NCBI GenBank assembly: GCA_001184205.1
Contig: LBMP01000002.1
Span: forward strand, 701,988-743,544
Length of the DNA stretch: 41,557 nt
Direction of reading: 5' to 3'
Source of the DNA: Desulfocarbo indianensis
GTDB taxonomy: Bacteria > Desulfobacterota > Desulfarculia > Desulfarculales > Desulfarculaceae
The translations under genes were made by a program, and so were the position numbers. The notes under the pieces are model-generated. The model was not told the origin of the DNA, did no database searches, and saw only the letters and a program-made list of their open reading frames with translations. Every line of letters begins with the position of its first letter. Position 1 is the stretch's first letter. Positions 4,227 through 41,557 of the stretch are shown one piece after another.

Positions 4227-4261
4227 AACGCCAAGGCTAAAGAATAGGACTGGGAAAGACC

Positions 4262-5413: not shown

Positions 5414-5445
5414 GGACCCTGGAAACCTGAAGAGGATATGGAGCC

Positions 5446-8532: not shown

Positions 8533-8591
8533 AACCTGCGAAGCCGACTATTGAGTAAATCGTTATTTACTCGCAAGGGAGGTGATTACGC

Positions 8592-9359: not shown

Positions 9360-9411
9360 GTTGGAAGAACCGGCATTGTAGCAGGGCGAAAAGAAGATTA
9401 GGACAGCGCCT

Positions 9412-9864: not shown

Positions 9865-9867
9865 GAA

Positions 9868-21490: not shown

Positions 21491-24400
21491 CTAATTTTCA
21501 ATTCGTGTCAAAGAGAGAGCTTGTCCCGCTATAGGCATGTGAATGAAAAGACCGATACAGTTCTTCCCCGTCGCTTTAGCTATCGCCTCTCCGTACGCGG
21601 TCAGCTGCCCCGCATAGCCTTTCGCATGATCTACAGCTTGCTCATGGTTTCCAGGAAATGCCTTGTGGTCAATTACAGCGAATCCATTATCCGCGACCAC
21701 TACCAAGTCGGCCTGTCCTGCCATGATGCTACCATTGCCGAGGCACTGCCAAACCGGCCATTCCCGATGCAGCTCTGCCCCAGGCCAGCGCTGGTTTATC
21801 CAGTTCAGCAGGGCGTCACTAGCCGCTATCATCTCCGTCGGCATAAGTGTGTCTGGTATGCCCCAACGAGTAAGGATAGACCCCGCCATGTCCAGGCGAT
21901 CTTGGTACCGAAAATCATTACGGTCAGCCGCAAAGAAAGTGTGAAGGACCTCACCCAACTGTACCGGCTCAGCCTTGCCGCCAAGGGTCATTCGGTTTCC
22001 AAGACGAATCTGCTCCAGAACTTTACCAAGGCCCTCAATCGACGACGGGGACACGCGGGCCGGTGGATGCTGGCGTGGGCCAGAAATTGTATAGTCTTCT
22101 CCGGGCTCGGGGGCAATTTTGGCTCTATCTAACGGTCCTGATGATCGCACCAGGCAATCGGCAGTCACTCCCGCCCACTTTACTCGGCCTTTTTGCGGTT
22201 CGCTTAGCAAGGGGGTCCCATTTACTGCAATGAGGGCCATGGCCCCTTGTTCCAGTTCCCCCTCCTTGCCTGCCAGCACTAGACGGTCCCGGGCCCGGGT
22301 CCACCCCACGTACAACAACCTTAGCGCCTGGCGCCTCTCTCGTTCATTGCGGGTATGCCATTCTGGACGAGCCCTGATACGATCCAGGAGCTCAATGCCA
22401 CTGGAAAGGCCGCCGTAGGGATAAGGCATGTAACGCACCCAGCGACCGTTCAGGGGAGCCTTCAGATTAAAACCTTCTTGGTCCGAAAGCACGGTCACGC
22501 CATCTGTACCCGCCTCCCACATCTTTCCCAATTCATATAGTACGGTTACAGGCCATTCCAGTCCCTTTGCGCGGTGCCAGGTGGATATGGTCACCGCCTG
22601 ACGGGCCGGATCGGTCCCCTGGGAGTCAAGTTCCGCCTCTGCCAATTCCTCCAGGTGGGCCACCAAGCCGGCTGGGGTGGTTCCACTTCCTTTTTCAAGT
22701 GCTCCCCGGGCGTAAGTCAGTGCGTACGACCTGACGGCCTCAAGATTGGCCAATCGCACCTCCGATTCTCCCCAGCTAAGACAGCGCTCCCGGGCATTCA
22801 CCGCGTCCACCACAATATCCAGCGCTATCAGCGGACCGGCCAATGTGTTTTCACCCACCCGGCGCTTGATCTCCACCGCTTCGGGTAATTCAAAGAAACT
22901 CTGACCTTGATCGTGAAGGACCTCGGCCAGCCATAGATCGGGATCCTGTGCATAATGGACCAGACGGGCTAGTTCAGCCGCAGCCAGCCTGTCTCTGCCA
23001 TCCACCCACAACCTCAAGCCGGCCAGGATTAGCCGGGCCTCGGGGGTGGCCATCAAGCCGGTGCGGCCCAGTTCGGCCTTGATTCCAGCCTCGGCCAGGG
23101 CGTCGGCCACCTGACTGGCGCGATTGGTGGTGCGGCACAGAATACCAATGTCAGACGGCCTCACCTCCCGGGCCTTCCCACTGGCCCGATCTCGCACCCT
23201 GGCCTCGGGATCGCCAAGTAGTTCGGCTACCGACGCCGCCAAGCCGGCATTCTGAATAGCAACTGTGCCTTCCATCTGCCAGCGTTCCAAGAAAGGACCT
23301 AGCTTATGGGGTTCATCCTCTAATGCCGGCTCCAACCTGACCAGTTCCTCGGGCATGCCATGGCCGGCAAAGGCACGCGCAAAGACCTGGGAAGTCAACT
23401 CCACCAGTCCGGGGCGACTGCGCCATGATTTAGGCAAGGTCTCAGTGGCCGCTTCCTTGCCAAGCTGTTCCATGCAAGCATCCATCAAAGCGGGGTCGGT
23501 GTCCCTGAAACCAAAAATGGATTGCTTTTGATCACCTACCCAAACTGCTTTGCCACATACTTCAGCCAGTTTGAGCAGAATGGCTAGTTGGATGGGGCTG
23601 GTGTCCTGAAACTCGTCCACCACCAGCAACTCCAACTCCTGGGAAACGCGCTGGCAAACGTCCTCCTTTTCAAGCAGACGCAACGCGAGGAATTCTTGAT
23701 CGGCGAAGTCGAGGGCACCCCAGTGGCGCTTAAGGTTTTGGAACTGATTGTAGCCAGCTTGGGCTAGATCAAACACCAACTCGATTGCCCTGGTTAGATC
23801 GTGTTGAAGTTGGGGATGAGCCAGATGCTTGTTTGCGATTTCCCGCACCGGATCGAGGAAATGGTCAGATTTTTTGGTAGCGCCTATTTTCCCCAGCTTG
23901 GCCCAGTCAGGCCAAGTGAGTAGATCATTGCTTTCCAGACGGGCCAGGTATTGTTCAACGGACTTTACTGCGGTTGCAGTGCCTTTGGTTTTGTCTAAGC
24001 TAATGTCCACCTGCCGCAGGAAATCATTTAATGCCTGACGGAGGTCGTGCTCCAAGACCGCTGGGCGGAGCGGCTTGTCAAAAAGATCCAGGCACATTTG
24101 CACGCTTCGCTTTTTACAATCCCCAAGAGCACCAGGATCGAGACCATTGGCCCTGGCTTTCTCAACGATCTCCTGTGCCGCACCGCTCCAATCAAATCCG
24201 TTGAAGCGGTGGTCCAAGACAGCGAGCTCTTGTTGAGTCGTCATGTCGGTGCTGGCAGATAATGCCCGTTTGAACTGGGCCTTCACCTGGTCCTCGTCCA
24301 GGATGTTCACATCGGGGAACAAACCCAGCTCAAAAGCGAAGTCTGACACTAGCCCGCCGCAGACCGAATGCACTGTGCCCATTCGGGCCGCCGACATCCG

Positions 24401-24610
24401 CTGAGCCTCGCGGGTCAATCCCTCTTTAATGAGCCGGCGGCGCACGCGTTCGGTCAGTTCAGCAGCTGCCTTGCGAGTAAATGTGGTGGCCACCACCCCT
24501 TCAGGCCTTACGCCATCCCGAATGTTTTCAATGATCACCTCGGACAAGCGGTAAGTTTTGCCACTCCCGGCGCTGGCCGATATAACCTTGATGTTTGCCC
24601 CGGCCATCAT
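21491..24610 (-). CDS. AddA-like UvrD helicase with C-terminal RecB-type nuclease domain
   Basis: 1039 residues from the ATG at 24610, which overlaps the upstream gene's stop as ATGA. The SF1A helicase motifs are complete: Walker A SASAGSGKT (11-19), Ia TTFTRKAAAEL, II VDEFQDTSP, III VGDQKQSIFGF, IV SWRSRPGL, V STWHRAKGLEWPV and VI LLYVGWTRARDRL. The C-terminus is a PD-(D/E)xK nuclease with GEVLH, a DLVVV strand, D981-H-K983 and QLTAYGEA (QxxxY motif). This is the AddA layout: a 3'-5' helicase that unwinds and cuts DNA ends, working with an AddB partner, encoded just upstream. It may serve as a defence nuclease or as the island's own end-processing enzyme. A longer frame reaches 24658 but ignores the coupled start. 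Confidence 0.85.
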   Translation of the reverse strand: MMAGANIKVISASAGSGKTYRLSEVIIENIRDGVRPEGVVATTFTRKAAAELTERVRRRLIKEGLTREAQRMSAARMGTVHSVCGGLVSDFAFELGLFPDVNILDEDQVKAQFKRALSASTDMTTQQELAVLDHRFNGFDWSGAAQEIVEKARANGLDPGALGDCKKRSVQMCLDLFDKPLRPAVLEHDLRQALNDFLRQVDISLDKTKGTATAVKSVEQYLARLESNDLLTWPDWAKLGKIGATKKSDHFLDPVREIANKHLAHPQLQHDLTRAIELVFDLAQAGYNQFQNLKRHWGALDFADQEFLALRLLEKEDVCQRVSQELELLVVDEFQDTSPIQLAILLKLAEVCGKAVWVGDQKQSIFGFRDTDPALMDACMEQLGKEAATETLPKSWRSRPGLVELTSQVFARAFAGHGMPEELVRLEPALEDEPHKLGPFLERWQMEGTVAIQNAGLAASVAELLGDPEARVRDRASGKAREVRPSDIGILCRTTNRASQVADALAEAGIKAELGRTGLMATPEARLILAGLRLWVDGRDRLAAAELARLVHYAQDPDLWLAEVLHDQGQSFFELPEAVEIKRRVGENTLAGPLIALDIVVDAVNARERCLSWGESEVRLANLEAVRSYALTYARGALEKGSGTTPAGLVAHLEELAEAELDSQGTDPARQAVTISTWHRAKGLEWPVTVLYELGKMWEAGTDGVTVLSDQEGFNLKAPLNGRWVRYMPYPYGGLSSGIELLDRIRARPEWHTRNERERRQALRLLYVGWTRARDRLVLAGKEGELEQGAMALIAVNGTPLLSEPQKGRVKWAGVTADCLVRSSGPLDRAKIAPEPGEDYTISGPRQHPPARVSPSSIEGLGKVLEQIRLGNRMTLGGKAEPVQLGEVLHTFFAADRNDFRYQDRLDMAGSILTRWGIPDTLMPTEMIAASDALLNWINQRWPGAELHREWPVWQCLGNGSIMAGQADLVVVADNGFAVIDHKAFPGNHEQAVDHAKGYAGQLTAYGEAIAKATGKNCIGLFIHMPIAGQALSLTRIEN

Positions 24611-27177
24611 GCCCCCCGTCCACGGCCACATAGCCCTGCCGCATTGCAATAACCGCAAGAAGAAATCAGCACCATTCCTGATTCGTCAATAGTGCTCTTT
24701 TTTGGGGGGGCTTCGCCGGCGCCCGGAGCGTGGATGATGCCAGCATCAATCTCGATAAATCGTTGGTTCACGGCACTGACTAGGGCCTCCCATGTCTGTT
24801 CAATGGAAGGGCCTTTCAGTCCCTCGGCACTGGGGAAAATACCTTGGTCTGTAGTGAGCATGGCCGCTTCGCGGATGATGAATACGCCACATGCCGGCAG
24901 ATTATTGCTCCGCTTGTCTTGGCAGAGATGGGCGTAGCATGCCATTTGGGTTGCTGTACCGTTCTCCAGCTTTTCGCGCCAACGACGGCTGCCTCCTCGC
25001 TTGAAATCGATTACCGCGTGACCGGCCACCAGGTCTGGTATGCCGTGAAGCTCGAAATCCAGCTCCGGAACCTTGCGGCTGTACCTAGTTTCCATTGCCG
25101 ATGGCTTAAGCCCGGCGGCACTTAGCATCTCTACCAATCTCTTGGCGGCCACGCCCACCGCCCGCCTGGTCCTGGCCTTGACGTCCTCTTTCCCTGGTTG
25201 GAAAATCGGTGCGGCCAGTAAAGGTCCATCCCGATCGAAAATCTCCAGCGCTTGGCATTCGGCCTGTTGAGGCTCAGCCGGCAAGGTCTCCAGTAAACGG
25301 GCCAAAACCTCATGCATGAACTGCCCTTCTAAAAATGAGCCGCTTTGCAACGAAGCTGTCGAACCACCCCGTATGTAGGCAAGGTCCTCGATCACCCACC
25401 GGAAGGGGCAGCTCACCAGCCGCTCTAGGCTGGCGGGCCACTCCTGCTCCCTGCGCAGGGTCGCTCCCTTGGGGGCATGCCATATTGGCACCGGCCCGGG
25501 TAGCTCTACCAAATGCCGTTTACTGCGTTTGGGGGCACCTATGGGTTGGGCCATCTCAAGCAAGGAAGTGTCGGCCCCTTTTTCAGCTCTGGCCAAGACC
25601 TCATCCCACAAAGGATGCGTAGCCAGCTCCTCGCCATCTTCGCCACGGGCCGGACAAACCAGGAGCAGGATCTCTTCAGCCATAAGCAGTGGCCTTTGCC
25701 AAGCCTGGGCCAACGCCAGCGCCTCGTCGCCGGGTTCGGGAATCTCTACCCCGGCCTCCCGCAGTTCCTTTCTCTCATTGGAATTTAAAGGCAATTGATG
25801 CGGTCTGGCCTCGGAACCGCGATGGAAATTCCACCATACGATTACCTTGGCCCGTCCCACGATACTGCCTGGTGTGCCCACACTGGCCATGCCGGCCTGG
25901 GCCTGGTTCAAGGCCGGGAGTCCGACCTCCGCGGTGGCGTCCTGAATAGCTCGCTGAAGTTGGGCTGGGGACAGATCGCTTACACCTGACAGGTCCAGCA
26001 ACCTCATGAGGTTGCTTAGTTGCCTCAGCACCGGCTCCAATAGCGCCTGCTCTTCATCTCCCAGTTTAGCCCGTCCCCTGGCCCAGTTCTCCAATACTGT
26101 TAGGCGTTCTTCGATGGAGCGAACCGGATAGCGTCCCTTCTGATCGGCTTGGCTGAATAAGAGTTCAAGCCGTTTTCGCACGCGAGAGCGTGATTCTGGG
26201 TCGGGGAGTTTTTCAAGGCCTTCTGCCAGCGCCTTTTGCCAGACATCTGAACCGACCGCGGGCCATTCTTGCAGGGCGTTGGTAAGCCGAAAGGCAATTC
26301 CGCGCGGGACCGGACCCTGCGGAAGGGTCAGAAGCTCCAGGGCACGCTGTGGATCCGGGGGGCTCCATCCCATCTCCAAGACCAAAGGCACCACTTGCAA
26401 AAGGGTGTGGTCATACACGCTGGACGGAGAACCAAGGCAAGGCAAACCGAAGTTACGCAACTCTCTATCCAGCACTGCATCGCCGCCAATGATGACCGTG
26501 CCATTCAGATCACCCCTGGCGGCCAGCCAGGCCGCCACCTCATGGGCTGCCGCTAGCGGACCTGCCGGGCGTAGAAGCTGCAAGCTGCCGTCACCCGTGG
26601 GCTTGAATCCCGGCTTTCGCGCGGCCTCGAGATCGCCGGAAGGTGTTGCCGCTCCAGGCTCCATGACCTCCACTTTGGTCCCTTGCGCCTGCAACGCCTT
26701 GAGCACCTGTCGCCATGCCAGGGGCAATTCGTCCAAAGGCTCACATAGACTTACTCGTGCCATGTCAGCCCGACGCTTTGAAAGGGTCTGGAAAACATCA
26801 TTCAGGCGGTCAGGGAATCCCGGCAGCACACTTTTGGTTACCTGTGCCAGTGATTTTAGCAGCGGTGTGACCGGCTGGCCCTGCCAGCCATGCAGGCACA
26901 GGCGGTCCCGCCAAGTCAGCAGTTTGCGTGCCGTGCCGAATGGGTCCACCTTGGCCGACTCGGACCAGAAACCGTTTTGCTTTTGAATCGTTGGCACCAG
27001 AGCCGCAGCCCTAAGAGCGTCCGGTTCAGCCGGATAGCGCAGACCAAGGGTGGTTTCCAGCAGCGAAAGCAGACCATTCTGGCCCACCCAGGTCTCACCG
27101 GCCACTGCCTCCAGGTCAGTGAGAGGACCGGGCCAAAAGCCTGCGTCGAACTCTGCAGAAAAGGTTACGCATTTCAT
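24607..27177 (-). CDS. AddB-like protein with iron-staple PD-(D/E)xK nuclease domain
   Basis: 856 residues. The N-terminal two thirds look like a degenerate helicase without a Walker A, as in AddB. The C-terminal nuclease has LVSCPFRW (C590), a DLVAGHAVIDFKRGG active site (D724, K726) and TQMACYA (QxxxY motif). The very C-terminus has Cys-x2-Cys-x5-Cys (C841, C844, C850). One cysteine before and three after the nuclease is the [4Fe-4S] staple of AddB, Cas4 and Dna2. With the overlapping downstream AddA-like gene it should form a two-nuclease complex. The overall length is shorter than most AddB proteins. It lies 77 bp after the SF2 helicase gene. Confidence 0.8.
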   Translation of the reverse strand: MKCVTFSAEFDAGFWPGPLTDLEAVAGETWVGQNGLLSLLETTLGLRYPAEPDALRAAALVPTIQKQNGFWSESAKVDPFGTARKLLTWRDRLCLHGWQGQPVTPLLKSLAQVTKSVLPGFPDRLNDVFQTLSKRRADMARVSLCEPLDELPLAWRQVLKALQAQGTKVEVMEPGAATPSGDLEAARKPGFKPTGDGSLQLLRPAGPLAAAHEVAAWLAARGDLNGTVIIGGDAVLDRELRNFGLPCLGSPSSVYDHTLLQVVPLVLEMGWSPPDPQRALELLTLPQGPVPRGIAFRLTNALQEWPAVGSDVWQKALAEGLEKLPDPESRSRVRKRLELLFSQADQKGRYPVRSIEERLTVLENWARGRAKLGDEEQALLEPVLRQLSNLMRLLDLSGVSDLSPAQLQRAIQDATAEVGLPALNQAQAGMASVGTPGSIVGRAKVIVWWNFHRGSEARPHQLPLNSNERKELREAGVEIPEPGDEALALAQAWQRPLLMAEEILLLVCPARGEDGEELATHPLWDEVLARAEKGADTSLLEMAQPIGAPKRSKRHLVELPGPVPIWHAPKGATLRREQEWPASLERLVSCPFRWVIEDLAYIRGGSTASLQSGSFLEGQFMHEVLARLLETLPAEPQQAECQALEIFDRDGPLLAAPIFQPGKEDVKARTRRAVGVAAKRLVEMLSAAGLKPSAMETRYSRKVPELDFELHGIPDLVAGHAVIDFKRGGSRRWREKLENGTATQMACYAHLCQDKRSNNLPACGVFIIREAAMLTTDQGIFPSAEGLKGPSIEQTWEALVSAVNQRFIEIDAGIIHAPGAGEAPPKKSTIDESGMVLISSCGYCNAAGLCGRGRGA

Positions 27178-27254
27178 TTGATTTGTCAGGGCCTTAATTT
27201 TAGTTTCTTTGGCGTGAGGTTTTGCACTATCAACCGCTTTGTACCAGAATTTTG

Positions 27255-30200
27255 TCAGGTCATAGGTTCAAGTGCGACCCTCCATCTGTCCGTATCGTAT
27301 TGTTGTTTGTCGCACTCAACATCGACCAGATATTCTAATAGGTCTTCCTGCCTCGGTTGCCCGAAGACCAGGCGGTAGACCGCAAGCATTTTTTTTAAGC
27401 GATGATAATGAGGTTCGTCCTTGCTGAATGCAAGGATTGGGACATGTCGTTCAATCCTTGCACCTCCCTCGACTTCATAAAGCCAATATGGAATCAAATC
27501 GTTTGCTTCAGCTGGTCGATCCTTTTTTGCCAACTCAAACATGAAACGCCACGGGTCGCCCTTTTGATCCCATCCTTCTCTCAATGCGTTCAGTCCATAG
27601 GCCAGCGCGACATTTTTCCTGACCGCATGACCCTTATATCTATGTATTCGTCCCTCCCGCTGTTCCAAATCAACAGGGTTATTGGGGAGGTTCCAATGGA
27701 TTACTGAATGACACCATGTATGAAAATCTAATCCCTCCTGCCCAATTGATGTCGAAGCGAGAACAAATGGTCTAAACGGTGAATTAAACGCCTCTCTTAC
27801 GGTGTCCGCCCGGGCGACGGTTGTTCCTCTCTCGTCTCTCAATTCAGCAAAACGTAAGGCAAAACGGCATCTGGTGTTATAACCTTCAAGTTTAACCTTG
27901 CGGTTTTCTAGGTCCACATGCACTTCATCCAGCTGCAACTGTGAGGTCCTAACAGAAAGGGACGAACCAATGGAATCCCCGATAGCAATCGCTCGTTCAG
28001 GCTCGGATTCGTCGATGACACCAAGCGATTCGATGAGGCAGTGACTTTGTTCATCAAGCAGAGATTGTATGTTTCCCTCGAGGCAATGCCGTAGTGCAAG
28101 CTGCCAATAGAAAGTGTCTGGCTTATCGCCCCGAAGGAGCGCAATGCTTTCAGGTAGGTTGAACAGGGTTCTGAATCCCTCCGATATTCTTACAGCCCCA
28201 TTAAGGAGGGCGTTAGAGTCCCAAGCAAGGGAAGGAGATTGTCTTCTAAGTGCTCGCAGGGCACATACACCCGGTGCTGCAACAGCCATCATGCTGAGTA
28301 TATTGATCAAATCGGCAGGAGGACGTCCGAGTGGAGTTTCGGTATCCTGATCCATTACCTGGTATAGTAGCTCCAGATGTTCTTTAAAGCGTTCGCCTCT
28401 CTCAGTGTATCCGTCTGTTGATACCGACGGCCAACCTTCGTTACCATCCATCAGCCAGGATTTCAGGCTCGGAAACCGATGTCCGTCCATGAGCGCCGGA
28501 GCTGCCCAATACCATCGCTGATCCTCAGGTCCTATATCGGTGGTTCCCTCAATAAGTTTAAGAAGGAGTGGTTCCAGAACCTCCCCGGCTCTCTCAATCA
28601 TGATGTCAGGTGGAATGGGACCTGCTTCATGATGGGCCATCGACAGGTCTAGAGGGTCTAGCAGATCTGCCAATGTCGGGCTTGGATATAGAAGAATCAG
28701 AACAGACATCCCGGTCAAACGACCTTCAGCGCTTCGAGAGTATCGAAGCAGCGGACGCAACTCGTCATAGAGCTGGTCATGGCTTATTTGTTTTGAAAGG
28801 CCGGATATCATCCTCCGCTCCGCCTCATAGGAGCAAAGGGCTGCAATCGCGTCAGGCACAACGTTCCATGCTGAAAACACCAAGTTCTTGGTCACCTTAT
28901 TGATCTCAGCATAAGGGCCGTCTGGCTTGCTGTAGGGCATGGAAGGCGGCATCCAGAGAATCTTCCAAAGCCCGCGGTCAATCGTGAGAGAAAAGAGCTC
29001 TCTCATTCTCGGGTTAGACGGAGACACCTCCTGATACGATTTGATGGCGGCTTTCTGAAGCAACCTATTTCCGTCTGAGCTCAAAGCGGCTATGAGCTCA
29101 TCGCTCGGATCGTCACATTGAGCCTCCAACTTACGCCTGAATTCGTATCGTCTAAGAAAGTTGATGAGATATGGGCTCGATTTCCAATACTCGATGATGT
29201 CACGCGCTCCAACGCTTGATGCGACTCTGTCGGCCATAACAGCCTCATGCAAGTCGCATGGCTGCAAAGTGGGTTTGTCTCGAGATTCAGAAAGCATTGC
29301 ATCAAGAGAGTTCGTCATGCCAACCCGTTCTGTTCGACACATAACACGACAAAGTGTCGATTGGAGGGCATCTCGGGCACTTGAAACTGCGGAACCATTT
29401 TCTGTTCCAATCATATATAGAGATTGCCTGAAAGATTGTATTTCCCTCTTAATGTCGTCTATGGCCGAATCAGAATCGAACAGGAACCGGAGGGTATTTA
29501 GAAAATCTGGGTAATGATCGTCATCTTGCTCGTGATCAAGAGATAGCATCTTATATGGTGTTGCCGACAAAAGCAGGGTCTTGACTTGCTCGTACCGAAA
29601 CAGTTTTTGGGCAAGCCTGGCTTCAGGATTAGTATGGTCCAGGAGATTTTTAAAGCGCTGAAACTCATCTAGGATGATCAAATCCGGTTCCAACATTTCG
29701 ACGCTCATTTCGGCAAGACGGAATCGCAGTTCCGAAACAAGTTCTAGTCGTTCTGGATGGTCCCACAGCACTCGTCTTTTTGACATTGCACAGAAATCTG
29801 CTATGCGCTGATGCAGATCTCGGTCTTCGATGACGTTCTTCACAAATGCTTCACAGATGTCGCTGTCGAGTGCTTCAGGCCTCCATTCATGGGTCCACCA
29901 CGACCAGTTGTCATCACTCACCCGACATTGAAGCAACCGTCTGAGTCCGGCAGGGCTGACACCCAATTTCCCTTTCAACAAGAGGTGAATCAGGGCTCGC
30001 TCTTCGTCTTTTCCTTCTCGGGATTTTGGATCGAAACTCGTTCCTGGCGTAAGGCTGACATAATTCACATGGTTCTTGCGAATTCCAGCAATATGCATTG
30101 GCAAAAGGGATAACCGAGTGGGTCGAACGAATTCCTGAACACCCGTAACATTCAACCGGTGAATATTCTGAGATGCGATGCTGACGTTGGAGCAGATATA

Positions 30201-30425
30201 GACGATGTCGATTCTATCCACTTCTCTTCGCAAATGTTCGATTGCAAGCGCGATGATCCCCCGCGCCACAAGAGTCTTCCCGAGACCAACCTCATCAGCC
30301 ACGAGAAAACGGTCTGTGGTGGTCGGGTCGAGGTAGAAACGGCGAAACACGTACTCAGCGGTACGACGTTGGAAGTCCTTTAATCTGGCAAGGACAAGTT
30401 CTGTATTTTCAGATCTTCTTGTCAC
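27255..30425 (-). CDS. SF2 (SNF2-like) helicase of the defence array
   Basis: 1056 residues. Motif I is DEVGLGKTLVARG (44-56), Ia VYICSN, II ILDEFQRF (a DEFQ instead of DEAH box), III LLLSATPYKML, and the C-terminal RecA lobe has STSIGQEGLDFHTW and LEQREGRIHRYKG. Between the lobes lies an insert of about 450 residues. This fits large SNF2-type translocases of restriction and defence systems rather than replication helicases. The start is a GTG whose sequence overlaps the PLD gene stop as GTGA, so translation is coupled. The coding sequence is AT-richer than the bam genes and the AddAB-like pair. The target and directionality are unknown. Confidence 0.82.
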   Translation of the reverse strand: MTRRSENTELVLARLKDFQRRTAEYVFRRFYLDPTTTDRFLVADEVGLGKTLVARGIIALAIEHLRREVDRIDIVYICSNVSIASQNIHRLNVTGVQEFVRPTRLSLLPMHIAGIRKNHVNYVSLTPGTSFDPKSREGKDEERALIHLLLKGKLGVSPAGLRRLLQCRVSDDNWSWWTHEWRPEALDSDICEAFVKNVIEDRDLHQRIADFCAMSKRRVLWDHPERLELVSELRFRLAEMSVEMLEPDLIILDEFQRFKNLLDHTNPEARLAQKLFRYEQVKTLLLSATPYKMLSLDHEQDDDHYPDFLNTLRFLFDSDSAIDDIKREIQSFRQSLYMIGTENGSAVSSARDALQSTLCRVMCRTERVGMTNSLDAMLSESRDKPTLQPCDLHEAVMADRVASSVGARDIIEYWKSSPYLINFLRRYEFRRKLEAQCDDPSDELIAALSSDGNRLLQKAAIKSYQEVSPSNPRMRELFSLTIDRGLWKILWMPPSMPYSKPDGPYAEINKVTKNLVFSAWNVVPDAIAALCSYEAERRMISGLSKQISHDQLYDELRPLLRYSRSAEGRLTGMSVLILLYPSPTLADLLDPLDLSMAHHEAGPIPPDIMIERAGEVLEPLLLKLIEGTTDIGPEDQRWYWAAPALMDGHRFPSLKSWLMDGNEGWPSVSTDGYTERGERFKEHLELLYQVMDQDTETPLGRPPADLINILSMMAVAAPGVCALRALRRQSPSLAWDSNALLNGAVRISEGFRTLFNLPESIALLRGDKPDTFYWQLALRHCLEGNIQSLLDEQSHCLIESLGVIDESEPERAIAIGDSIGSSLSVRTSQLQLDEVHVDLENRKVKLEGYNTRCRFALRFAELRDERGTTVARADTVREAFNSPFRPFVLASTSIGQEGLDFHTWCHSVIHWNLPNNPVDLEQREGRIHRYKGHAVRKNVALAYGLNALREGWDQKGDPWRFMFELAKKDRPAEANDLIPYWLYEVEGGARIERHVPILAFSKDEPHYHRLKKMLAVYRLVFGQPRQEDLLEYLVDVECDKQQYDTDRWRVALEPMT

Positions 30426-32236: not shown

Positions 32237-33431
32237 TCAAGCCCGCATCGAGATCTGAGAGCAGGGTTCTTACGTTTGACCAACGGTATGCCATCTGACC
32301 CACACCGGCGTACCCTTTCCACTGGTCCCTCGCCCTTGGATTCGTGAAGCGGGATCGAACGCCTTTGAGCCGCCGTTCCCTGGAGTTGATTAGCATCCTG
32401 CTGTCGGAATCGTCGGCTACATTGCCACGAGTAGCCAGTGCCCGTCGATGCCACGCCGAGACGAAGTCCTTTGTCTTCCTTGTGATCGTGTGTCCTCGGC
32501 CTGCAGTCAGATCCCATAAGCCCTGAAGCGGAAGATCAAGCCATTGACAATGTTGAAGTCGGCCTCTCCATTCTTCGATGTTTTCCCGATGTTCGTCTTC
32601 AAGCTCCTGTCGATCAGACAGCTCTGCCAGCATTAGGTTGTATAGAAATGCAGCACCATGCATGAGCGTTGAAAAGAACTCGGCGTAGTGTATTAGTTCC
32701 TTGTGCTCCGAAGAGAAGCTATTTAACTCCGGATGTTGCCAAGGAAAATCGCAATCAACGGGTTGACAATTGAGAGCCAAAAAAGCCAGAAGGCTGTCCT
32801 TTTGAGATTTCAACAGCCGGTCAAGCAAAAAACTAGCTTCATCTGGTTCAAGTTCAAAACTGATTTGATCTACGTCATCAGGAAAGCCATCCGGCGGAGC
32901 AGGCAATCGAGGATGCCAAGTCTGGGTTTCGCTTTCTGGATAATCGTCCTTTTCATAACGACGGCGAGAGACATCACGGCGGTTGTATACCTCGTCCACA
33001 TGCCTATGGTATTCATCCTGAGAACAGGGGATTCTCCGAATACCCCATTCACCCAAACCATTCCAGTAGACCGAACTCGGTAAGCGTTTTAAAGACCTGC
33101 CCGCAAGCCTCCCAAAAACACCTGCATGGTCCGAATTCGATAGAAGCGGATCGACCAAGGCCATTTCCATCTGGCGTGCCTTGGCGGCAAATGCAGGTGA
33201 GGACATTCGCCTTTTTTCAAGTTTCGTGTACACCCATGGAACAAAGAGCATGTACCGTAAACGAGTTTGGATCGTGCTTGTACCGGGAAACAAAGCGTCT
33301 GCAAATGAATCCCTAATCGCACCTAATCCGAGCTCATCTCGGCTTTCCCTTTCCTGAAAAAGCGAGAGGATGCGCAATGCCCTTTCTCGAGCAGTTGGGT
33401 CATGATCTATCCATGTTAATGAGGAGGGCAT
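32217..33431 (-). CDS. DUF6361 family protein
   Basis: 404 residues beginning MPSSLTWIDHDPTARERALRI. I recognise it as DUF6361-like from the N-terminus, with segments TRLRYMLFVPWVY (about 57-69) and SSVYWNGLGEWGI (about 117-129). No catalytic motif, signal peptide or membrane helix is visible; it is rich in Trp, Arg and acidic residues. Such proteins sit next to PLD-like and helicase genes, so a structural or adaptor role in the same complex is likely but not shown. It lies 65 bp after the broken ATPase gene and overlaps the PLD gene. Confidence 0.65.
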   Translation of the reverse strand: MPSSLTWIDHDPTARERALRILSLFQERESRDELGLGAIRDSFADALFPGTSTIQTRLRYMLFVPWVYTKLEKRRMSSPAFAAKARQMEMALVDPLLSNSDHAGVFGRLAGRSLKRLPSSVYWNGLGEWGIRRIPCSQDEYHRHVDEVYNRRDVSRRRYEKDDYPESETQTWHPRLPAPPDGFPDDVDQISFELEPDEASFLLDRLLKSQKDSLLAFLALNCQPVDCDFPWQHPELNSFSSEHKELIHYAEFFSTLMHGAAFLYNLMLAELSDRQELEDEHRENIEEWRGRLQHCQWLDLPLQGLWDLTAGRGHTITRKTKDFVSAWHRRALATRGNVADDSDSRMLINSRERRLKGVRSRFTNPRARDQWKGYAGVGQMAYRWSNVRTLLSDLDAGLNGSGHA

Positions 33432-33496
33432 TCCTGCTTACCTCATAGATAGTCGAAAGTTAATGACGATAACATGTTGTGAGACACTCTTCCTAT

Positions 33497-36400
33497 CTAT
33501 TTCGATTCCTCTAAAATTGTCCTAATATCCTGAAAATGAGTTTCGACGAATTCGATGGTTGTTTCGAGACCACCCAGGGACAATGAAACCTCTAATAAGT
33601 CCGTATTTAGCAGAGCCATTCTCAGATCGGACATTGACGCTTTATCCTTTTTTATGAATTCTTTGTACATTGCCGCGCAAAGTGGGCATAGTGCTAAAAA
33701 CTGTGCTTCATGTTCCATTGGAAGATAATCCTGAGAGAACGCTTCGACAGCTTCAAAATAATGCTCACCATTACGTTTTCTAAAAGGCATTTCCTTCCTG
33801 CATATTTGACACACCATTTGGCCGTACTCGTTGGTGTACTGCTCCCTGAGCCATAGAGAAGGATCGATAGCGCCCTTGGTTGTCCGAACACTTCTTTCGC
33901 GTTCTTCGTACTCCTTTTTGGGAGATTCGGCGAGTTGTTTTGTGAGCCGTTCCTGCCGCCGCTCTGGATTGTTTACCTTCCGTTTTGGAAATACCGGCCT
34001 TTCATCCCTTGAGGCAATTTCAGTTTTCAGCCGCGCAAAATCATCCGGATGATTTTTCAGAAATTCGATGTCATCAAGAGAGACTCCTAACATGTCGGCG
34101 TGTTCGCGTTTCTGTTCATCTTCTGATTTTGTGCCCCGGCCAACACCTTGATTAATGCCTAATACTTCATCCAACTCACTTGCCCCTTGAAATTCATCAA
34201 GAAGCTGATCTGTGGTCATGTCCCCCGGCTTTTCTATGGTACCGTCCCGCGTTGGAATCCACTTCGTGTTCCGAAGGCAGGTCAGCATTTGAGAATCGAA
34301 TGACTTGCTATGACTGTGGTAGTAGAACCAATGATAGCGGCCTTTGAAGAACCATGAGTCCAATTCCAAACGTTCCTTGAGATAACCCCAAAGGAGTAGA
34401 GCCGATTTCGTTCTATCCTCAAAATCTAACGCACTCTCTAGGGACTCAAGAAAATCATCCAGCCCATGGAGCTCATAGTTCTCGATGGTTTCGCCGCGCG
34501 TTGAGTCTTCCCCAACCCCAGAAGGCAATCCATCGGAAAAAAGAATGCGCCGTGGAAGGGTCGCAACTCCAAGTTCGCTCAGAACGCTTGTGTCTGTTGC
34601 AGAAGCAAGCGCCTTTTCGTATAGGAACCAAACATCAGTCGAGTTTGAAAAATATAGTCTCAAATCTGATCTATCATGATAGATATCGCACGGTTTTTTG
34701 AAAGCAAAGTTCCCAGCCGGGTCGACAACTCTGAGAAATGGTGTCTGCTTAGCTTTTTCGATAACCTTTTTCTTCCCACCCTCAGAATCAGAAGTCAAAG
34801 CACGCAATATTTTGAGAATGTCTGCCGTGTGCTCGGTCTCGGAGATTAAGGAGAAATCTTCCTTCAAGTACTTGGGCAGAACCCTCTCTACGATATCGTC
34901 AAAAACATCCGGCTCCGAAAGACCCAAACGCTTCAGGAAGTTACCCGCTTGCTCATCGCCTGCAATCGACCGCTTCACAATCGGAAAGTCAGTATCTTCC
35001 GGAGGAGGTAAGAAGGCATTTTGTGTATTACCATCAGCTCGAAACGGATTCACCTGACTATCGTCTTGAAGCCGGACAATAGGCTTGGTCCGGAGAGGGC
35101 CTCCCGAGTCCCCGGACCATCTTGGAGAACGCCAAAGCGCCTCTTGTCCTGACAAGTACCTATAAAATTTCACCAGCCATTCATCGATCTGCTTAAGCAA
35201 GAAAGATTGTGTGATCCTGCGGGCAAAGCTATCGGGCGTGACCTCCTCGACGTCCAGTTCATTTAACAAGTATATGCGTAGCTCAGGAGTTCGATCCTGA
35301 GTAATCGAGCCGGCCAGCCATTTGATTGTATTTTCAGATTGAAAGAGGTAGGTAAGTTGATCTTGATCCAGCAATTTTCTAAGATCAGCGCCACGGGCAA
35401 GTTTGGCATTTCGCGCAGCAACGAAACTATCGTCATCTGTTGGAAGCAGCTCCTTGGCCGCTAAAGCTTCCCGAACCGCGACCACAATCGGATAGAACAT
35501 ACTGCCCGGAGGAAAATTGTCCATCCTGATTGGTAACGCATCAAGCACCGATACACCTAGGAGGCCAAGTTCCTTGAACTTTGGCAACACGTCAGCGATT
35601 AGGCGGGCTGTCTCTCGTACAAGAGTGGCGTTCCAATCGTCATCTTTTGGAATATTATCCCGCGCGGGAGTCGTCTTGTACGGTCCCTGGATCAAGAACC
35701 CGAATCGAGTCTCCTTTTCTGTTGGGAAGTAGACCACGAGCGGTGAGTCCTTGACCTTTACAATTTCGTCCCGACAGTCCTTTTCGATTTTCTCCAAACG
35801 AAAACCGACCTCGACCTGAACGTGGCGAGGACAATCGTTGCTTGGATCAGGCACATCCACGGGTCGTTCAAATATCAACCAGCTCTCGCTCTCATCTTCG
35901 CCATTGCTCTGCCCGATCACCGTAATTTCCCTTGCAGCACCACGAGCAGCCTCGTCCCGCAGATAAACACCATCCGTGCCGTCCGGCAGCCTGTATTCAA
36001 TCTCCTGAATTTCGCGAAGGAAAAGAAGTGTCCTGGCACTGAGTTTGCGAAGCCTTGCACTGATTTCTCTACATGCGACTATCGAATCAACATCTTCCTT
36101 GTTGAAAGGAAACACGAAGAGGGTGGTCCATGAGTCTCCTATGCCCCTTAGCCGCACAGCAAATGGGCGAACATAGTTCTCGATCCTGAAGCTTTCATGT
36201 CCTGAGTGTATTTCAGGCGAGGTCGTATATGCATAGACAGACTTGAAACCAATGCCGAATTTGCCGATCTGTGTGAGGTCTTCAGCCTTCGTGCCCTCGC
36301 CCACACCGCAGATACCACGCACGTCTTTTTCATTGAAAAGGCGACCGTCATGAAAGACCTCGAGCTTGTCTTCGAAAAGATTGAACAGGACTCTTGTTGC

Positions 36401-36511
36401 GCCGGCGTCCTCGGCGTTCTGCAACAGCTCAAAAAGAAAGTGTGTTCGATCTGTGTACAAACGCCCAAGAAAAGACAGATGGCGAATTCCCTCACCGTAT
36501 TCTCGGATATT
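33497..36511 (-). pseudogene. Sacsin-type GHKL ATPase with C-terminal HNH-like zinc domain, 5' end split off by IS256
   Basis: The frame is open from the insertion target duplication to the stop (1004 codons). The N-terminus is a GHKL/Hsp90-like ATP-binding domain of the sacsin type: LYTDRTHFLFELLQNAEDAG holds the N box, followed by IGKFGIGFKSVYAYT. The C-terminus has a four-cysteine zinc knuckle, CQIC then CPLC about 45 residues later, resembling an HNH fold in which the usual catalytic His-His is replaced (HYFEAVEAF). The first 11 codons lie on the other side of the IS element at 37859-37891, and the joined gene would encode 1015 residues. No in-frame ATG occurs in about the first 300 codons of this fragment, so a useful truncated product is unlikely. 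Confidence 0.8.
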
Positions 36512-36519
36512 GTCCGCTC
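36512..36519. repeat. Target-site duplication of IS256 element, left copy
   Basis: GTCCGCTC directly abuts the left inverted repeat and is repeated at 37859-37866 beside the right one. An 8-bp duplication is usual for the IS256 family. The repeat falls in codons 9-11 of the disrupted ATPase gene. Confidence 0.85.
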
Positions 36520-37858
36520 GGGAGTGTCATAAATTTTGTGTAAGTAGCCATCCGTGGGAGACTCTATCTCCTAGGAGGATCACGCGATGGCTATCAAGGA
36601 CGAGTTGCTGGACCAGTTGATGGAGGGCCTGGACAAGCCCGAGGACTTGTTAGGCGATAAGGGCCTGCTGCAGGAATTGAAGAAGGCCCTGATCGAGAAG
36701 GCGCTTGGGGCCGAGCTCACCCACCACCTCGGCTATGAGCGAAACGATCCCGCCGGGCGCGGCTCCGGCAATTCCCGAAACGGCAAGAGTAAGAAGACGG
36801 TCCGGGACAAGGACGGGCAGATCGAGATATCCGTCCCCCGTGACCGCCAGGGCACCTTCGAGCCCCAGCTGATCAAAAAAGGTCAGACCCGCATCAAGGG
36901 CTTTGATGAGAAGGTCATCTCCATGTACGCCCGGGGTATGACGGTCCGTGAGATCCAGGGGCATCTCAAGGATGTCTACGCGGTCGATGTCTCTCCCGAC
37001 CTGATATCCAGGGTCACCAGCGCGGTTATGGAGGAGGTCAGGGAGTGGCAGGCCCGCCCCCTGGACCCCGTCTATCCCGTGGTAATCTTCGACGCCCTGC
37101 GGATCAAGATTCGCGACGAAGGCATGGTCAAGAACAAGGCCGTCTACGTGGCCCTGGGCATAAATGTGGAGGGCATCAAAGAGGTGCTGGGGCTGTGGGT
37201 GGAGCAGACCGAAGGAGCAAAATTCTGGATGAGGGTGATGACCGATCTGAAGAATCGGGGGGTGGCTGACATCCTGATCGCGGTGGTGGACGGCCTCAAG
37301 GGCTTCCCTGAAGCCATCACGGCCATCTACCCCGAGGCCCAGGTCCAGACCTGCATCGTGCACATGGTGCGGCACTCCCTGAAATTTGTGCCCTGGAAGG
37401 AGCGCAAGGAGGTGGCCGTCGATCTGAAGGCCATCTACCGGGCCGAGACCGTGGAAGCCGCTCAGGACCGCCTGGCCGACTTTGAGGACAAGTGGGGAAG
37501 CAAGTATCCAACCATCGGCCAGTCCTGGAGGCGCAACTGGGAGAAGATCATTCCCTTCCTGGCCTATCCCCCAGAGGTGCGTCAGCTGATTTACACCACC
37601 AACGCCATCGAGAGCCTGCACCGCAGCCTGCGCAAGAACGTCAGGAACCGGGGCCACTTTCCCAACGACGATGCGGCCATAAAACTACTCTACCTGGTGA
37701 TCAGGAACGTCAGCGCCAAATGGAGGATGCCCCAGAGAGGCTGGAAGATGGTACTGAACCAATTTGCTATACTCTTTGAGGATCGCCTGCAAATGGCGGT
37801 GTGGACATAAAACCAAATTCAGGCGGAATGGCTCTTACACAGAAAATCTGACAGACTC
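36520..37858 (+). mobile_element. Complete IS256-family insertion sequence, 1339 bp
   Basis: The element has one transposase gene and imperfect terminal inverted repeats of about 30 bp. Left end: GGGAGTGTCATAAATTTT then GTGTAAGTAGCC. Right end (complement): GAGTCTGTCAGATTTTCT then GTGTAAGAGCC. It is flanked by the 8-bp direct repeat GTCCGCTC. The intact gene, ends and exact duplication point to a recent insertion. Confidence 0.9.
36587..37810 (+). CDS. IS256 family transposase (mutator type)
   Basis: 407 residues, the normal full length. The DDE residues are D169 (VIFDALRIKI), D235 (VVDGLKGFPEAI) and E342 (NAIESLHRSLRK), with the typical N-terminal segment GNSRNGKSKKTV. It has a strong ribosome site AGGAGG 8 nt before the ATG. 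It catalyses cut- or copy-type transposition of the element and looks active. It reads opposite to the surrounding defence genes, and its codon use is GC-rich like the chromosome. Confidence 0.93.
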   Translation: MAIKDELLDQLMEGLDKPEDLLGDKGLLQELKKALIEKALGAELTHHLGYERNDPAGRGSGNSRNGKSKKTVRDKDGQIEISVPRDRQGTFEPQLIKKGQTRIKGFDEKVISMYARGMTVREIQGHLKDVYAVDVSPDLISRVTSAVMEEVREWQARPLDPVYPVVIFDALRIKIRDEGMVKNKAVYVALGINVEGIKEVLGLWVEQTEGAKFWMRVMTDLKNRGVADILIAVVDGLKGFPEAITAIYPEAQVQTCIVHMVRHSLKFVPWKERKEVAVDLKAIYRAETVEAAQDRLADFEDKWGSKYPTIGQSWRRNWEKIIPFLAYPPEVRQLIYTTNAIESLHRSLRKNVRNRGHFPNDDAAIKLLYLVIRNVSAKWRMPQRGWKMVLNQFAILFEDRLQMAVWT

Positions 37859-37866
37859 GTCCGCTC
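37859..37866. repeat. Target-site duplication of IS256 element, right copy
   Basis: Second copy of GTCCGCTC, identical to 36512-36519. Confidence 0.85.
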
Positions 37867-37891
37867 TGATTTGATCGTAGTCACACGGCAT
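37859..37891 (-). pseudogene. 5' remnant (11 codons) of the sacsin-type ATPase gene
   Basis: Starting from the ATG at 37891 the remnant encodes MPCDYDQIRAD up to the IS target site. Joined to 36511 it continues NIREYGEGIRHLSFLGRLYTDR, the sequence expected before the ATP-binding domain. The ATG lies inside the last codons of the SNF2 helicase gene (overlap ATGCCGTGTGA, 11 bp), so the two genes were translationally coupled before the insertion. Confidence 0.8.
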
Positions 37892-40800
37892 TACTCGAAT
37901 CCTCATCGACTTTAATGACGCCATAAGCTACGGGCCCGGCGGTTAGATCAGCTCTCTCCATCGCTATATCTAGCTCCTGAATGCGTCGCGCGTAGTCTGC
38001 CTCCGCTGCGGATATCTGCGAACGTCGCATCTTCTGGATTTTTTCATTTGTTGCCTGATCGAGCTGCTCCTCCAGAAGAGCAATTCGTGCTCTGTGGCTC
38101 GTTGTAAGGCTTTCCCTCCTGTACTCCGCCAGCTCCTGGGTCCTTCGCTGATGCTGGCTGCGCGCCTCAGACCACATCTTATGATGCTGAGCGTCCAGGC
38201 CGTTCAATGCATCAGGATTTGGGGTATGGACGCTTTCTTCCGTTGATACGCTTTCTGCTCTCTCAAGAAGGCTGGAGATGTGCTTGGTTACAACATCATT
38301 CGAAGCAACCGGCTGTAGAACCAAGTCCTCCCTAACGCCATGGAACTGCCACTGATAAACTGCGAATTCATAGCTGCCTTTGGGTACTTTATTGCTTTTG
38401 GACCGCAAGGCCGTCATGACCCGCCTTTTGGTATCAAAGGTCATAGCCGCCTGTTTTACAAGAGGATGAAGGGGCATTATGAAGACCGCTTCAGGGTGTT
38501 GCGAAGCGCACTCGGAGTCGAATGTAATAAGGAGATGCGGGTTTCCCCCTTTGAGCCAGCTTCCCCATTCGCGATAAACGGCCGTGTTCTGGCGTGGAAT
38601 CATCCGAAAATCACGCAACAGATTGTTTCTGGCTTCTTGGGATAGACGTAGCGTTTTAAGCGCTTTTTCGCCAAGTATGAATTCCTGGTCCCTGCCGCAA
38701 GTACGTTGAAGGTAAATCGTAATGAGTCTTCGTATCGATATAGGGGACAGCCAATAGCTCGATGCTTGCTCGATTTCCCGCTTCATCTGATCCTGGGGCA
38801 GACGGATGCCGAACAGTTCGAGTTGTTTTTGTTCGAGTTCGTCCTGTTCCTGTATCAGCCTGATTTTGTTGTCCGCCAGTTGTTGAAGCTGCTCTCCGCG
38901 TTCTGTTTCGCTCAAGGAGAAATTTTCCGCGATACTGCGAATTTCCCTGGTGATCTCCCCGAGTATTTCCTCGCTGGCACCGAGAGCGCTGTTAAACACA
39001 CCAATCCGCACCAGGCACCGCTCGTAGATATCCGCATCGACCGTACCCGGCGTGATCAAATTGAAGATGGCTACACTCTCACTTTTCTGTCCATTCCGAT
39101 CTATTCGGCCAATCCTCTGTTCTACCCGCATGGGGTTCCAGGGCAGGTCGTAATTGACGATACAATCACAGAACTGGTAGTCTAAACCCTCGCAGCCAAT
39201 CTCTGAAAAAAGTAAAATGTCGAGACCGTCATCCCGATTTGGCGACAATTCAAAGCGATTCCGAAGCTCGACCCGATCCTCATCAGGTGTCCCGCCGTGA
39301 ATCAGCCCAACCCTAAATCCATCCGCCTTTAGATGTTCATAGAGATAGTGAAGCGTGTGACGGAAGCTGCTGAAAAGCATCACCTTGTTATTGGATAGTT
39401 TTTGTTTGTCCCGGATGATATTACGGAGAGCGTCAAGTTTCGGATCGTATGGATCGAGGTCACGGGCCTTGCCGAGGATTGCCCGGATACGTGATTCTAT
39501 GCTATCAACAGCATCGCTTTGGGGGGCAAACTCAGTATTGTCAGCTTCTTCCCATGACAATTCATCAAGGTGGCGGCTCAGTATTTCCTCTAGGAAGGGG
39601 GCAAGCCCATAAAGACAACTGGCCGCCTGTCTCCGAATGGTTGTCATCATGAACTTGACATTGACATCTTTGTGAAGCTTACTGAATATCTCCGCCTGCA
39701 CCTGAAGCAGTTCGTCATGTAGATCTTTCTGATTCGGTGTAAATTCAACGACGACGGTTTCGGGCTTGCGCACCGTGAACTCTCCGATATCGCGGCGGCG
39801 CGTCCGGTTGATTATCCCTGAAAACGTATGCAACGCCTCGAGATCAGTTATCAACTGTACCCGTTCTTCCAAGCCAATTTTGCCTTCGGCGAGCTGTTCA
39901 TTTAGACGATTGAACTTTGGATTGTATCGGAGAATTGACTGCCCCCAAGGCGTTCCCGCCGCGTTGTTCAGAGCATCCTTGGCCCCAATAGCCCATCCCG
40001 GCTCCTGGGCACGGGCCAAGGCTACCGCTTGATTGATGAACGGATTCGGCTCTGACATGTGCTCGAAGCTCTCATGATCAATAATCAGGTCGGGGCGGAG
40101 GGTGTTCAGTAAAACGAACAGGTCATGGCTGCCAAGTTGTATGGGGGTAGCTGTTAGGAAGATTACGGCTTCCGCATGGTCGCAGAAAAACCGCACCGCC
40201 TTGTGACTGAAAGTATCCTGATTCCGTATATGGTGCGCCTCGTCTACGATGACCAAATCAAAACGAGGGGGTGGGTCCAAGTCCAGTAACCCTTTTTTGC
40301 GCTTTCGCTTACTGTACGAACCATATAGAAGCGCTTCATCGAATAGGGAATATGGGATGATAATTCGTTGATGCTGCTCTGGCCAAATCCCTTCCAAATC
40401 CATTTCGTTGATACAGTACCTCAGTGTTGGTCCATCCAGATGAACAAAGCGCTCCTCAAACCGCTTCATCTCAATTTGCCATTTGCGTTCAGTAATAAGC
40501 GGTCGGGGACAAATTATTAGGATGGAACGTATGTCGCGCCTGGCCTGTAGCTCCCGGAGTATTAAACCAGCCTCGATGGTCTTGCCGACCCCAACGCCGT
40601 CGGCAACAAGCATTCGAGGACGATCTGATCGAATGAATCTCAAGACGGGCCGGAATTGATATGGGATGAAATCCACACGGGCGGCATTCAAAGAATAAAG
40701 CGTTGAAAGTCCTGGATAGCGAATCTGCAAGGCGGCGAGATAGGAATGGAATTCATCACATGGTAAGAACCGAGACTCGTCAACCGGTTGGTCTTCCGTC

Positions 40801-41234
40801 TTTAGCTGTGATGCATAGTAAGTATGCGTTTCGCCATCCATGAACACCAGGAATCGGTTCTCCGGTTTGCCTGGTATTGCGGAAACAACGGCACCTCGCA
40901 TGGTTGGGTTGGATTTGAGATGAACGATCTGACCGGGCGAGAATTCCGTATCAGACACCGGTGCCTCCGGAGATGGGCTTTCTAAAACTGCACCATCTTG
41001 ATCAGGTCCGGGACGTTCCTTCGAAAGCAGGGACGCCTTGGACTCGCGCACCTCGTCGAGCAAGCTTTCGTCCGCCCCAACGACAATGGCGAAGCGCTGC
41101 AGCGTGTCCATATCCCGGTATACGTCGTCTAATGGGAATCCCTCACTGCCCGCATGCGCCCATCTGTTTCGAACTGTCTGCATCTCTTTGACAAAATGGC
41201 GTGCCTCCGACGTCAACTCCAGTTTCGTTGACAT
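37881..41234 (-). CDS. SNF2/RapA-like helicase with truncated N-terminal HEPN domain
   Basis: 1117 residues. The first 60 residues hold the end of a Swt1-type HEPN domain with an Rx4H motif (R22-NRWA-H27), the RNase signature of HEPN proteins; its first half is missing. The SNF2 helicase follows: motif I DGVGVGKTIEAGLIL (K218), II VDEAHHIRN (D331), III LTATPIQLG, V EIGCEGLDYQF and VI RVEQRIGRIDRNGQ, then a C-terminal coiled coil (about 1020-1100). The layout resembles RapA/DrmD-like helicases of defence systems. The sequence upstream of the first ATG is the end of an IS3-family element, so the true N-terminus has been removed; this ATG may be internal. It was the first visible gene of the array. 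Confidence 0.82.
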   Translation of the reverse strand: MSTKLELTSEARHFVKEMQTVRNRWAHAGSEGFPLDDVYRDMDTLQRFAIVVGADESLLDEVRESKASLLSKERPGPDQDGAVLESPSPEAPVSDTEFSPGQIVHLKSNPTMRGAVVSAIPGKPENRFLVFMDGETHTYYASQLKTEDQPVDESRFLPCDEFHSYLAALQIRYPGLSTLYSLNAARVDFIPYQFRPVLRFIRSDRPRMLVADGVGVGKTIEAGLILRELQARRDIRSILIICPRPLITERKWQIEMKRFEERFVHLDGPTLRYCINEMDLEGIWPEQHQRIIIPYSLFDEALLYGSYSKRKRKKGLLDLDPPPRFDLVIVDEAHHIRNQDTFSHKAVRFFCDHAEAVIFLTATPIQLGSHDLFVLLNTLRPDLIIDHESFEHMSEPNPFINQAVALARAQEPGWAIGAKDALNNAAGTPWGQSILRYNPKFNRLNEQLAEGKIGLEERVQLITDLEALHTFSGIINRTRRRDIGEFTVRKPETVVVEFTPNQKDLHDELLQVQAEIFSKLHKDVNVKFMMTTIRRQAASCLYGLAPFLEEILSRHLDELSWEEADNTEFAPQSDAVDSIESRIRAILGKARDLDPYDPKLDALRNIIRDKQKLSNNKVMLFSSFRHTLHYLYEHLKADGFRVGLIHGGTPDEDRVELRNRFELSPNRDDGLDILLFSEIGCEGLDYQFCDCIVNYDLPWNPMRVEQRIGRIDRNGQKSESVAIFNLITPGTVDADIYERCLVRIGVFNSALGASEEILGEITREIRSIAENFSLSETERGEQLQQLADNKIRLIQEQDELEQKQLELFGIRLPQDQMKREIEQASSYWLSPISIRRLITIYLQRTCGRDQEFILGEKALKTLRLSQEARNNLLRDFRMIPRQNTAVYREWGSWLKGGNPHLLITFDSECASQHPEAVFIMPLHPLVKQAAMTFDTKRRVMTALRSKSNKVPKGSYEFAVYQWQFHGVREDLVLQPVASNDVVTKHISSLLERAESVSTEESVHTPNPDALNGLDAQHHKMWSEARSQHQRRTQELAEYRRESLTTSHRARIALLEEQLDQATNEKIQKMRRSQISAAEADYARRIQELDIAMERADLTAGPVAYGVIKVDEDSSNAV

Positions 41235-41235
41235 C

Positions 41236-41557
41236 TGATAGCGGTGGTCCCCATTTGTTGGACAGGTCGGCGGCTTGAATAAGGTTGATTTGGCCGGTCA
41301 TGTTTAAGCCGCCTTGGAGAGGCCCTCGAAATATGCCTCTTCGGGTGTCTTGTGGTCCAGAGAGGAATGGGGTCTTTCCGAGTTGTAGAAGTCGATCCAG
41401 TGTCGAAGACCTTTGCGGAGGGCGGCCCCATCCTTGAACTCATTGAGGTAGATGCATTCGTATTTGAGCGACCACCAGAGACGCTCGATGAATACGTTGT
41501 CCACCCAGGCCCCCTTGCCGTCCATGGATATTTTGATTTCGTGATCCTTGAGCACCT
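41236..41557 (-). mobile_element. IS3-family insertion sequence, right end (continues past window)
   Basis: The end of an IS3-like element lies about 2 bp upstream of the SNF2 ATG. The probable terminal repeat begins TGATAGCGGTGGTCCCCATT at 41236. The exact border and its duplication cannot be confirmed because the other end is outside the window. The element sits in the 5' part of the helicase gene. Confidence 0.7.
41304..41557 (-). CDS. IS3-family transposase OrfB, C-terminal part
   Basis: The last 80 or so residues of an integrase-core (rve) transposase. ISMDGKGAWVDNVFIERLW contains the third catalytic residue (E of FIERLW), followed by SLKYECIYL and the family end FYNSERPHSSLDHKTPEEAY. 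The 5' part lies beyond the right edge. It catalyses transposition of the element. Confidence 0.88.
   Translation of the reverse strand, partial: VLKDHEIKISMDGKGAWVDNVFIERLWWSLKYECIYLNEFKDGAALRKGLRHWIDFYNSERPHSSLDHKTPEEAYFEGLSKAA

Follow-up and report, generated by a model that had tools for sequence, protein, structure and literature searches.

Azaca, a defence system of three components (ZacA, ZacB and ZacC), was reportedly named by Millman et al. in 2022. The PLD component of Azaca has been tabulated (PMC10952713), and ZacC has been classed as a helicase (PMC12278908). In the literature covered by our search (much of the subscription literature and the latest lists of defence systems lay outside it), Azaca was only named or tabulated, with no mechanism described, and neither a combination of Azaca with AddAB nor an SNF2/sacsin pair was described; because the coverage was incomplete, the absence of these two combinations is weak evidence. 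Anantharaman et al. (2013; PMC3710099) describe most HEPN domains as RNases and report fusions of Swt1-like HEPN domains with SNF2 helicases in restriction loci.

The window (the whole stretch of DNA analysed, 41,557 nucleotides; G000:C111:701988-743544) runs to the end of its contig (743544 bases). Seven minus-strand ORFs were found at 21491-41234 in the ORF list, at the places given in the sequence-only reading, which had rightly described seven co-directional genes. In transcription order, they encode HEPN_Swt1 + SNF2, a sacsin-type GHKL ATPase, DUF6361, a PLD-type protein, an SF2 helicase, a PD-(D/E)XK protein, and a UvrD helicase, as called with Pfam, PADLOC, and NCBIfam profiles; the domains named earlier (SF2 helicases, GHKL ATPase, PLD, and two RecB-type nucleases) were thus borne out. 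The transposase of an IS256 element forms an eighth gene inside the array, on the strand opposite to the seven. The overlapping stop and start codons reported earlier hold within three groups of genes (ZacA/ZacB, 20 bp; ZacB/ZacC, 4 bp; AddB/AddA; and SNF2/sacsin before the insertion) and not between them, where 65 bp (sacsin-ZacA) and 77 bp (ZacC-AddB) separate the genes. The GC3 values were 0.61-0.62 for AddBA, 0.49-0.52 for ZacABC, and 0.70-0.83 for nearby core genes. Promoter-like and terminator-like sites were fewer than the shuffled expectation and were uninformative, and the Rfam search gave no match. A 114-aa ORF at the window end was rejected as a further gene, as it lies out of frame over an IS3-family transposase. 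We consider it highly probable that the locus belongs to a composite chromosomal defence island, of which it is the downstream portion, and that it consists of three separate modules: an intact Azaca, an accessory AddBA, and an interrupted HEPN-SNF2/sacsin pair.

Array genes 3-5 are intact and are assigned by sequence to the named Azaca system, because they gave full-length PADLOC matches to ZacA, ZacB, and ZacC, spanning essentially whole proteins and models: zacA (DUF6361; 32217..33431, minus strand; PADLOC ZacA 459.5 bits, residues 1-399; Pfam DUF6361 253 bits), zacB (PLD-family nuclease; 30422..32236, minus strand; PADLOC ZacB 580.7 bits, full length), and zacC (SF2 helicase; 27255..30425, minus strand; PADLOC ZacC 1145.4 bits, full length). 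The PLD-type protein had no Pfam match and was recognised through PADLOC ZacB. In the alignments (27 ZacA, 24 ZacB, and 21 ZacC sequences), the catalytic motifs of ZacB (two HxK and GSxN) were invariant in the 24 homologues, and those of ZacC (GLGKT (Walker A), DEFQ, SATP, and QREGRIHR (motif VI)) were invariant in the 21. The AlphaFold model of ZacA (three sequences) had a pLDDT of 40 and was not used; a PDB match of ZacA to PorL/GldL (E 0.0024) was set aside as weak and probably a helical similarity. Thus, all three proteins are full length, in the order of Azaca and with the catalytic motifs kept; the window differs in adding AddBA after the trio and the broken SNF2/sacsin before it, neither being part of the named three-gene system.

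The order zacA-zacB-zacC, with the genes adjacent and co-directional, was common to all complete loci compared, and zacABC stood together in nearly every Zac locus compared (Cronobacter plasmids, a haloarchaeal plasmid, and genomes of the window's phylum); the exceptions were the genome G335, which has a ZacA fragment, and loci truncated at contig ends or by masked sequence. Most of these loci have the trio without the other four array genes. A tyrosine recombinase gene lies directly 5' of ZacABC on Cronobacter and Methylocystis plasmids (L010:13933-14907, L011:13932-14906, L057:3830-4963), which suggests a mobile Azaca cassette. No relatives of ZacA or ZacC were found in the viral contigs scanned for them.

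The sequence-only reading had proposed a single seven-gene antiviral system, new or poorly described, with no named system known to have the full set. The seven co-directional genes with short gaps speak for this, but we now hold it to be extremely improbable: the core is Azaca, the remaining genes are not linked to it in other genomes, and only five of the seven genes are intact, the other two being broken. For the co-occurrence of the array genes, which had been set beforehand as a refutation test together with a match to a named system, 394 genomes of the phylum were used (the window's own included; 393 others). ZacA was found in 12 of the 394, window-type AddB in 5 (E < 1e-170), and a strong sacsin match in 8 (E < 1e-100). 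None of the 393 other genomes had both ZacA and window-type AddB, the AddB profile finding mainly the window-type lineage; ZacA and sacsin occurred together in one of them (G071), at loci about 1.45 Mb apart (Fisher p 0.18). A small number of tblastn queries served to inspect the neighbourhoods, some contigs being short, and the full seven-gene set was found at no other locus among those examined. In Niveispirillum, ZacABC and AddBA lie near SNF2 and sacsin-like genes; it was rejected as a second locus with the full set, since the SNF2 gene there lies on the other strand and is HmaA (1592 bits), which belongs to another system.

Behind zacC lie the genes for an AddB-like PD-(D/E)XK nuclease with Fe-S cysteines (24607..27177, minus strand; PF12705; D715, D724, K726, and C590/C841/C844/C850) and an AddA-like UvrD helicase-nuclease (21491..24658, minus strand; UvrD_N/UvrD_C; GSGKT, DEFQD, and a C-terminal D...DxK). 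As in AddAB, an AddB-like PD-(D/E)XK protein with Fe-S cysteines stands beside an AddA-like UvrD helicase with a C-terminal nuclease motif. The AddAB-type features are all present and conserved in relatives (the UvrD motifs, two PD-(D/E)XK domains, and the Fe-S cysteines), both AddB and AddA keeping the D...DxK nuclease motif; by these motifs, the pair is predicted to work like an AddAB-type helicase-nuclease. It differs from AddAB in that AddA scores far below the AddA equivalog cut-offs (167 vs 708 bits and 145 vs 861 bits; NCBIfam), in being a second copy, and in having relatives that sit in defence islands, where they often follow a WYL gene. The genome has a further AddAB-like pair, at G000:C222:25730-30072, which is probably the housekeeping copy, and the window pair is, as judged from its sequence, an accessory pair distinct from it. 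The AddA-like helicase was also considered as GajB of Gabija and rejected, with a partial match (107 bits, residues 305-423) and no GajA adjoining.

Relatives of AddBA without Zac were found in Variovorax, Agrobacterium vitis, Rhizobium, Sinorhizobium, Bradyrhizobium, Lysinibacillus, and four genomes of the window's phylum; a WYL-domain gene or ubiquitin-like genes often precede them. Among the loci compared, AddBA adjoins ZacABC also in Methylocystis parvus, in G306, and on five alphaproteobacterial plasmids; the last have the order AddB-AddA-ZacABC, and their AddA (22-23% identity to that of the window) belongs to another lineage, which ruled them out as carriers of the window's lineage. In the maximum-likelihood tree of AddA, the Zac-adjacent proteins did not form one clade. 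Given its well-supported branches, no fewer than two changes of Zac adjacency are needed, and the best tree, in which several forks are without resolution and G306 is a long branch, needs three. AddBA became a neighbour of Azaca independently at least twice, and probably on three or more occasions. The strongest argument for a functional link comes from this repeated pairing, which hints at one; common defence islands would yield such pairing too. In a rival reading, an extended Azaca, ZacABC and AddBA would form one five-gene system, with ZacB and ZacC cutting phage DNA and AddBA degrading it from the new ends, and HEPN-SNF2/sacsin would be separate. The adjacency in the window, M. parvus, G306, and the five plasmids, which covers both gene orders and more than one AddA lineage, speaks for such a system; however, most other Zac loci examined are without AddBA, window-type AddBA is mostly without Zac, AddBA in G306 and elsewhere brings its own WYL regulator, and GC3 differs between AddBA and ZacABC, so that we regard the five-gene system as unlikely and keep Azaca and AddBA as separate modules.

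On rhizobial plasmids, AddBA pairs of two lineages lie directly after a multiubiquitin - ThiF - DUF6527 set, with or without Azaca behind (L015:6329-14881, L016:6284-14897, L062:3317-11882, L068:7454-15730). In the genome G372 (L110:1233-8427), AddBA has a WYL gene before it and a gene for a 1230-aa TerB_N/TerB_C protein after it, on the same strand, possibly a further defence combination. The AddB alignment offered no stretch conserved enough for scanning viral contigs.

The first two genes of the array are a separate pair, both broken in the window. Genes 3-7 are intact, and genes 1 and 2 are broken by an IS3-family and an IS256 element, with the IS256 transposase intervening. The HEPN-SNF2 helicase gene is left with its 3' part (37881..41240, minus strand; SNF2, Helicase_C, and half of HEPN_Swt1), and its first approximately 83 codons were found on contig C24 (G000:C24:29698-29946), beyond the IS3-family element. 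This element interrupts the HEPN domain, and its far end forms the end of the window (41241..41557, minus strand; C-terminus of the transposase, in-frame ...ERLWWSLKYE...TPEEAYF, cut by the contig end). A 5-bp duplication, TATCA, is common to the junctions in the window and C24. Only profile positions 70-114 of 115 of HEPN_Swt1 remain in the window, with RNRWAH (the RxxxxH motif) kept, so that the window was not counted as encoding a complete HEPN RNase; the helicase of G420 (1201 aa) has a complete HEPN domain. The sacsin frame, whose ATG at 37891 overlaps the end of the SNF2 gene, is cut 11 codons after that ATG by an IS256-family element (36520..37858, plus strand; transposase 36587-37810; transpos_IS256 428 bits), which has terminal inverted repeats and an 8-bp target duplication (GTCCGCTC) and is the sole copy in the genome. 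The 11 codons upstream of the element (37859..37891, minus strand) were assigned from the junction sequences and homologous N-termini. The main part downstream of it (33497..36519, minus strand; Sacsin domain, P_loop_sacsin) has its longest ORF starting at TTG 36460, and intact relatives (990-1040 aa) start upstream. Just before Walker A, the window SNF2 has G where relatives have E, possibly a sign of decay. The pair is probably non-functional in this strain.

The same pair was found in G420 (73% and 78% identical), G149, G246, and G071, the last with a stop in the sacsin frame. SNF2 and sacsin without HEPN were found on four plasmids, of two Rhizobium species, Ensifer, and, more distantly, the archaeon Methanomethylovorans; none of the pairs examined (in these four phylum genomes and four plasmids) was near Zac. 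Just before the HEPN-less pairs of Rhizobium and Ensifer, small genes were seen (176-184 aa; L054:8146-8676, L056:8133-8687), 52% identical and sigma-factor-like by eye. The C-terminal approximately 110 codons of the sacsin ORF (33497-36460) encode a zinc-finger domain matching EcoKMcrA (6ghc, E 6e-9), with four cysteines invariant and the HNH histidine pair replaced; because of this replacement, the domain is predicted to bind DNA, probably, rather than to cut it.

Compared with the HEPN-SNF2 fusions of restriction loci, the window gene has the same Swt1-like HEPN and SNF2 helicase with the RxxxxH motif; it differs in being paired with a sacsin-type ATPase, a pair not mentioned in the available part of that paper (PMC3710099), and in being split by an insertion sequence. 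The pair might instead be a divergent DISARM or Tiamat that lies next to Azaca by chance. The SNF2 helicase resembles DrmD, most of the protein being covered by a match to a PADLOC DrmD model (388 bits), and the sacsin-type ATPase is similar to TmtA models in their N-terminal part (partial matches, best 224 bits), with intact relatives alike in both respects. The likeness to DISARM that had been noted earlier is, however, confined to the SNF2 helicase, which misses the NCBI DrmD cut-off (312 vs 610 bits). No other DISARM gene (drmA, drmB, drmC, or drmMI-type) was recognised among the genes scanned in the window and C24, in agreement with the earlier statement that there is no DrmB-like gene. 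As for Tiamat, the TmtA models have 1063-1782 positions and only their N-terminal parts were matched (the best match covering positions 37-805 of 1302, and likewise in intact relatives), whereas the sacsin protein is shorter (~1000-1040 aa), has the McrA-like C-terminal domain, and follows its SNF2 partner. A divergent DISARM or Tiamat is thus quite improbable, and we treat the two genes as a module of their own.

Since the split HEPN-SNF2 gene joins the window to C24, the locus would be the tail of an island with the order BREX-3 (+ Gabija) - SNF2/sacsin - Azaca - AddBA; the link is made by the split gene and the matching duplication, without a spanning read. In the direction of the array, C24 encodes BrxF, BrxC, a GHKL ATPase, PglXI, GajA, GajB, BrxHI, PglZ, and BrxA, with BrxA directly before HEPN-SNF2. 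The set of BREX type 3 (BrxF, 192 bits, cut-off 50; PglZ, 869 bits, cut-off 250; BrxHI, 1577 bits; BrxC, PglXI, and BrxA) and a full-length Gabija (GajA, 910 bits; GajB, 913 bits) are the same as in the known systems; the difference is that Gabija and the GHKL ATPase gene are nested inside the BREX run, which lies outside the window, upstream of the split HEPN-SNF2 (G000:C24:11326-29604; L128:326-18604). The best DrmA/DrmD matches of the C24 helicase were below its BrxHI match. The only methyltransferase of C24 is PglXI, so that the earlier statement that a methyltransferase is absent holds for the array and not for the linked contig. The antiviral role that had been proposed is supported, as the array contains a named defence system and the island also carries BREX-3 and Gabija.

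The three-module reading is favoured, on evidence drawn from sequence comparison, by the full-length Zac matches, the separate recurrence of the pairs, the GC3 contrast, the overlaps within modules, the insertions with target duplications, the housekeeping-like AddAB at C222, and the BREX-3/Gabija upstream. Against it, a single transcript is possible, since the genes share one orientation and only short gaps separate them, and AddBA of two lineages next to ZacABC elsewhere hints at a functional link. From its domains, ZacC would be an ATP-driven SF2 translocase engaging invading DNA, and ZacB a PLD nuclease cutting it; ZacA may be a structural or regulatory partner translated with ZacB via the overlapping frames. 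AddBA would be a dual-nuclease helicase degrading DNA ends, including those made by other nucleases of the island, and the modules probably act side by side. More tentatively, and with considerable doubt, HEPN-SNF2/sacsin (in bacteria and archaea, HEPN being sometimes absent) could act in abortive infection as a system of two genes: foreign DNA would be sensed by the SNF2 motor together with the GHKL ATPase, which would then set free the HEPN RNase. Likewise, the AddBA recruited repeatedly by Azaca could be a cut-and-degrade variant. A named system replaces the claimed new one, and the layers of the island can be told apart: BREX-3 with a nested Gabija, an SNF2/sacsin pair in decay, Azaca, and AddBA as a spare pair. 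Outside the island, genes for aldehyde:ferredoxin oxidoreductase, FlpD, NuoE/NuoF-like proteins, and an Fe-S flavoprotein form an ordinary electron-transfer cluster at 1733-12416 of the window.
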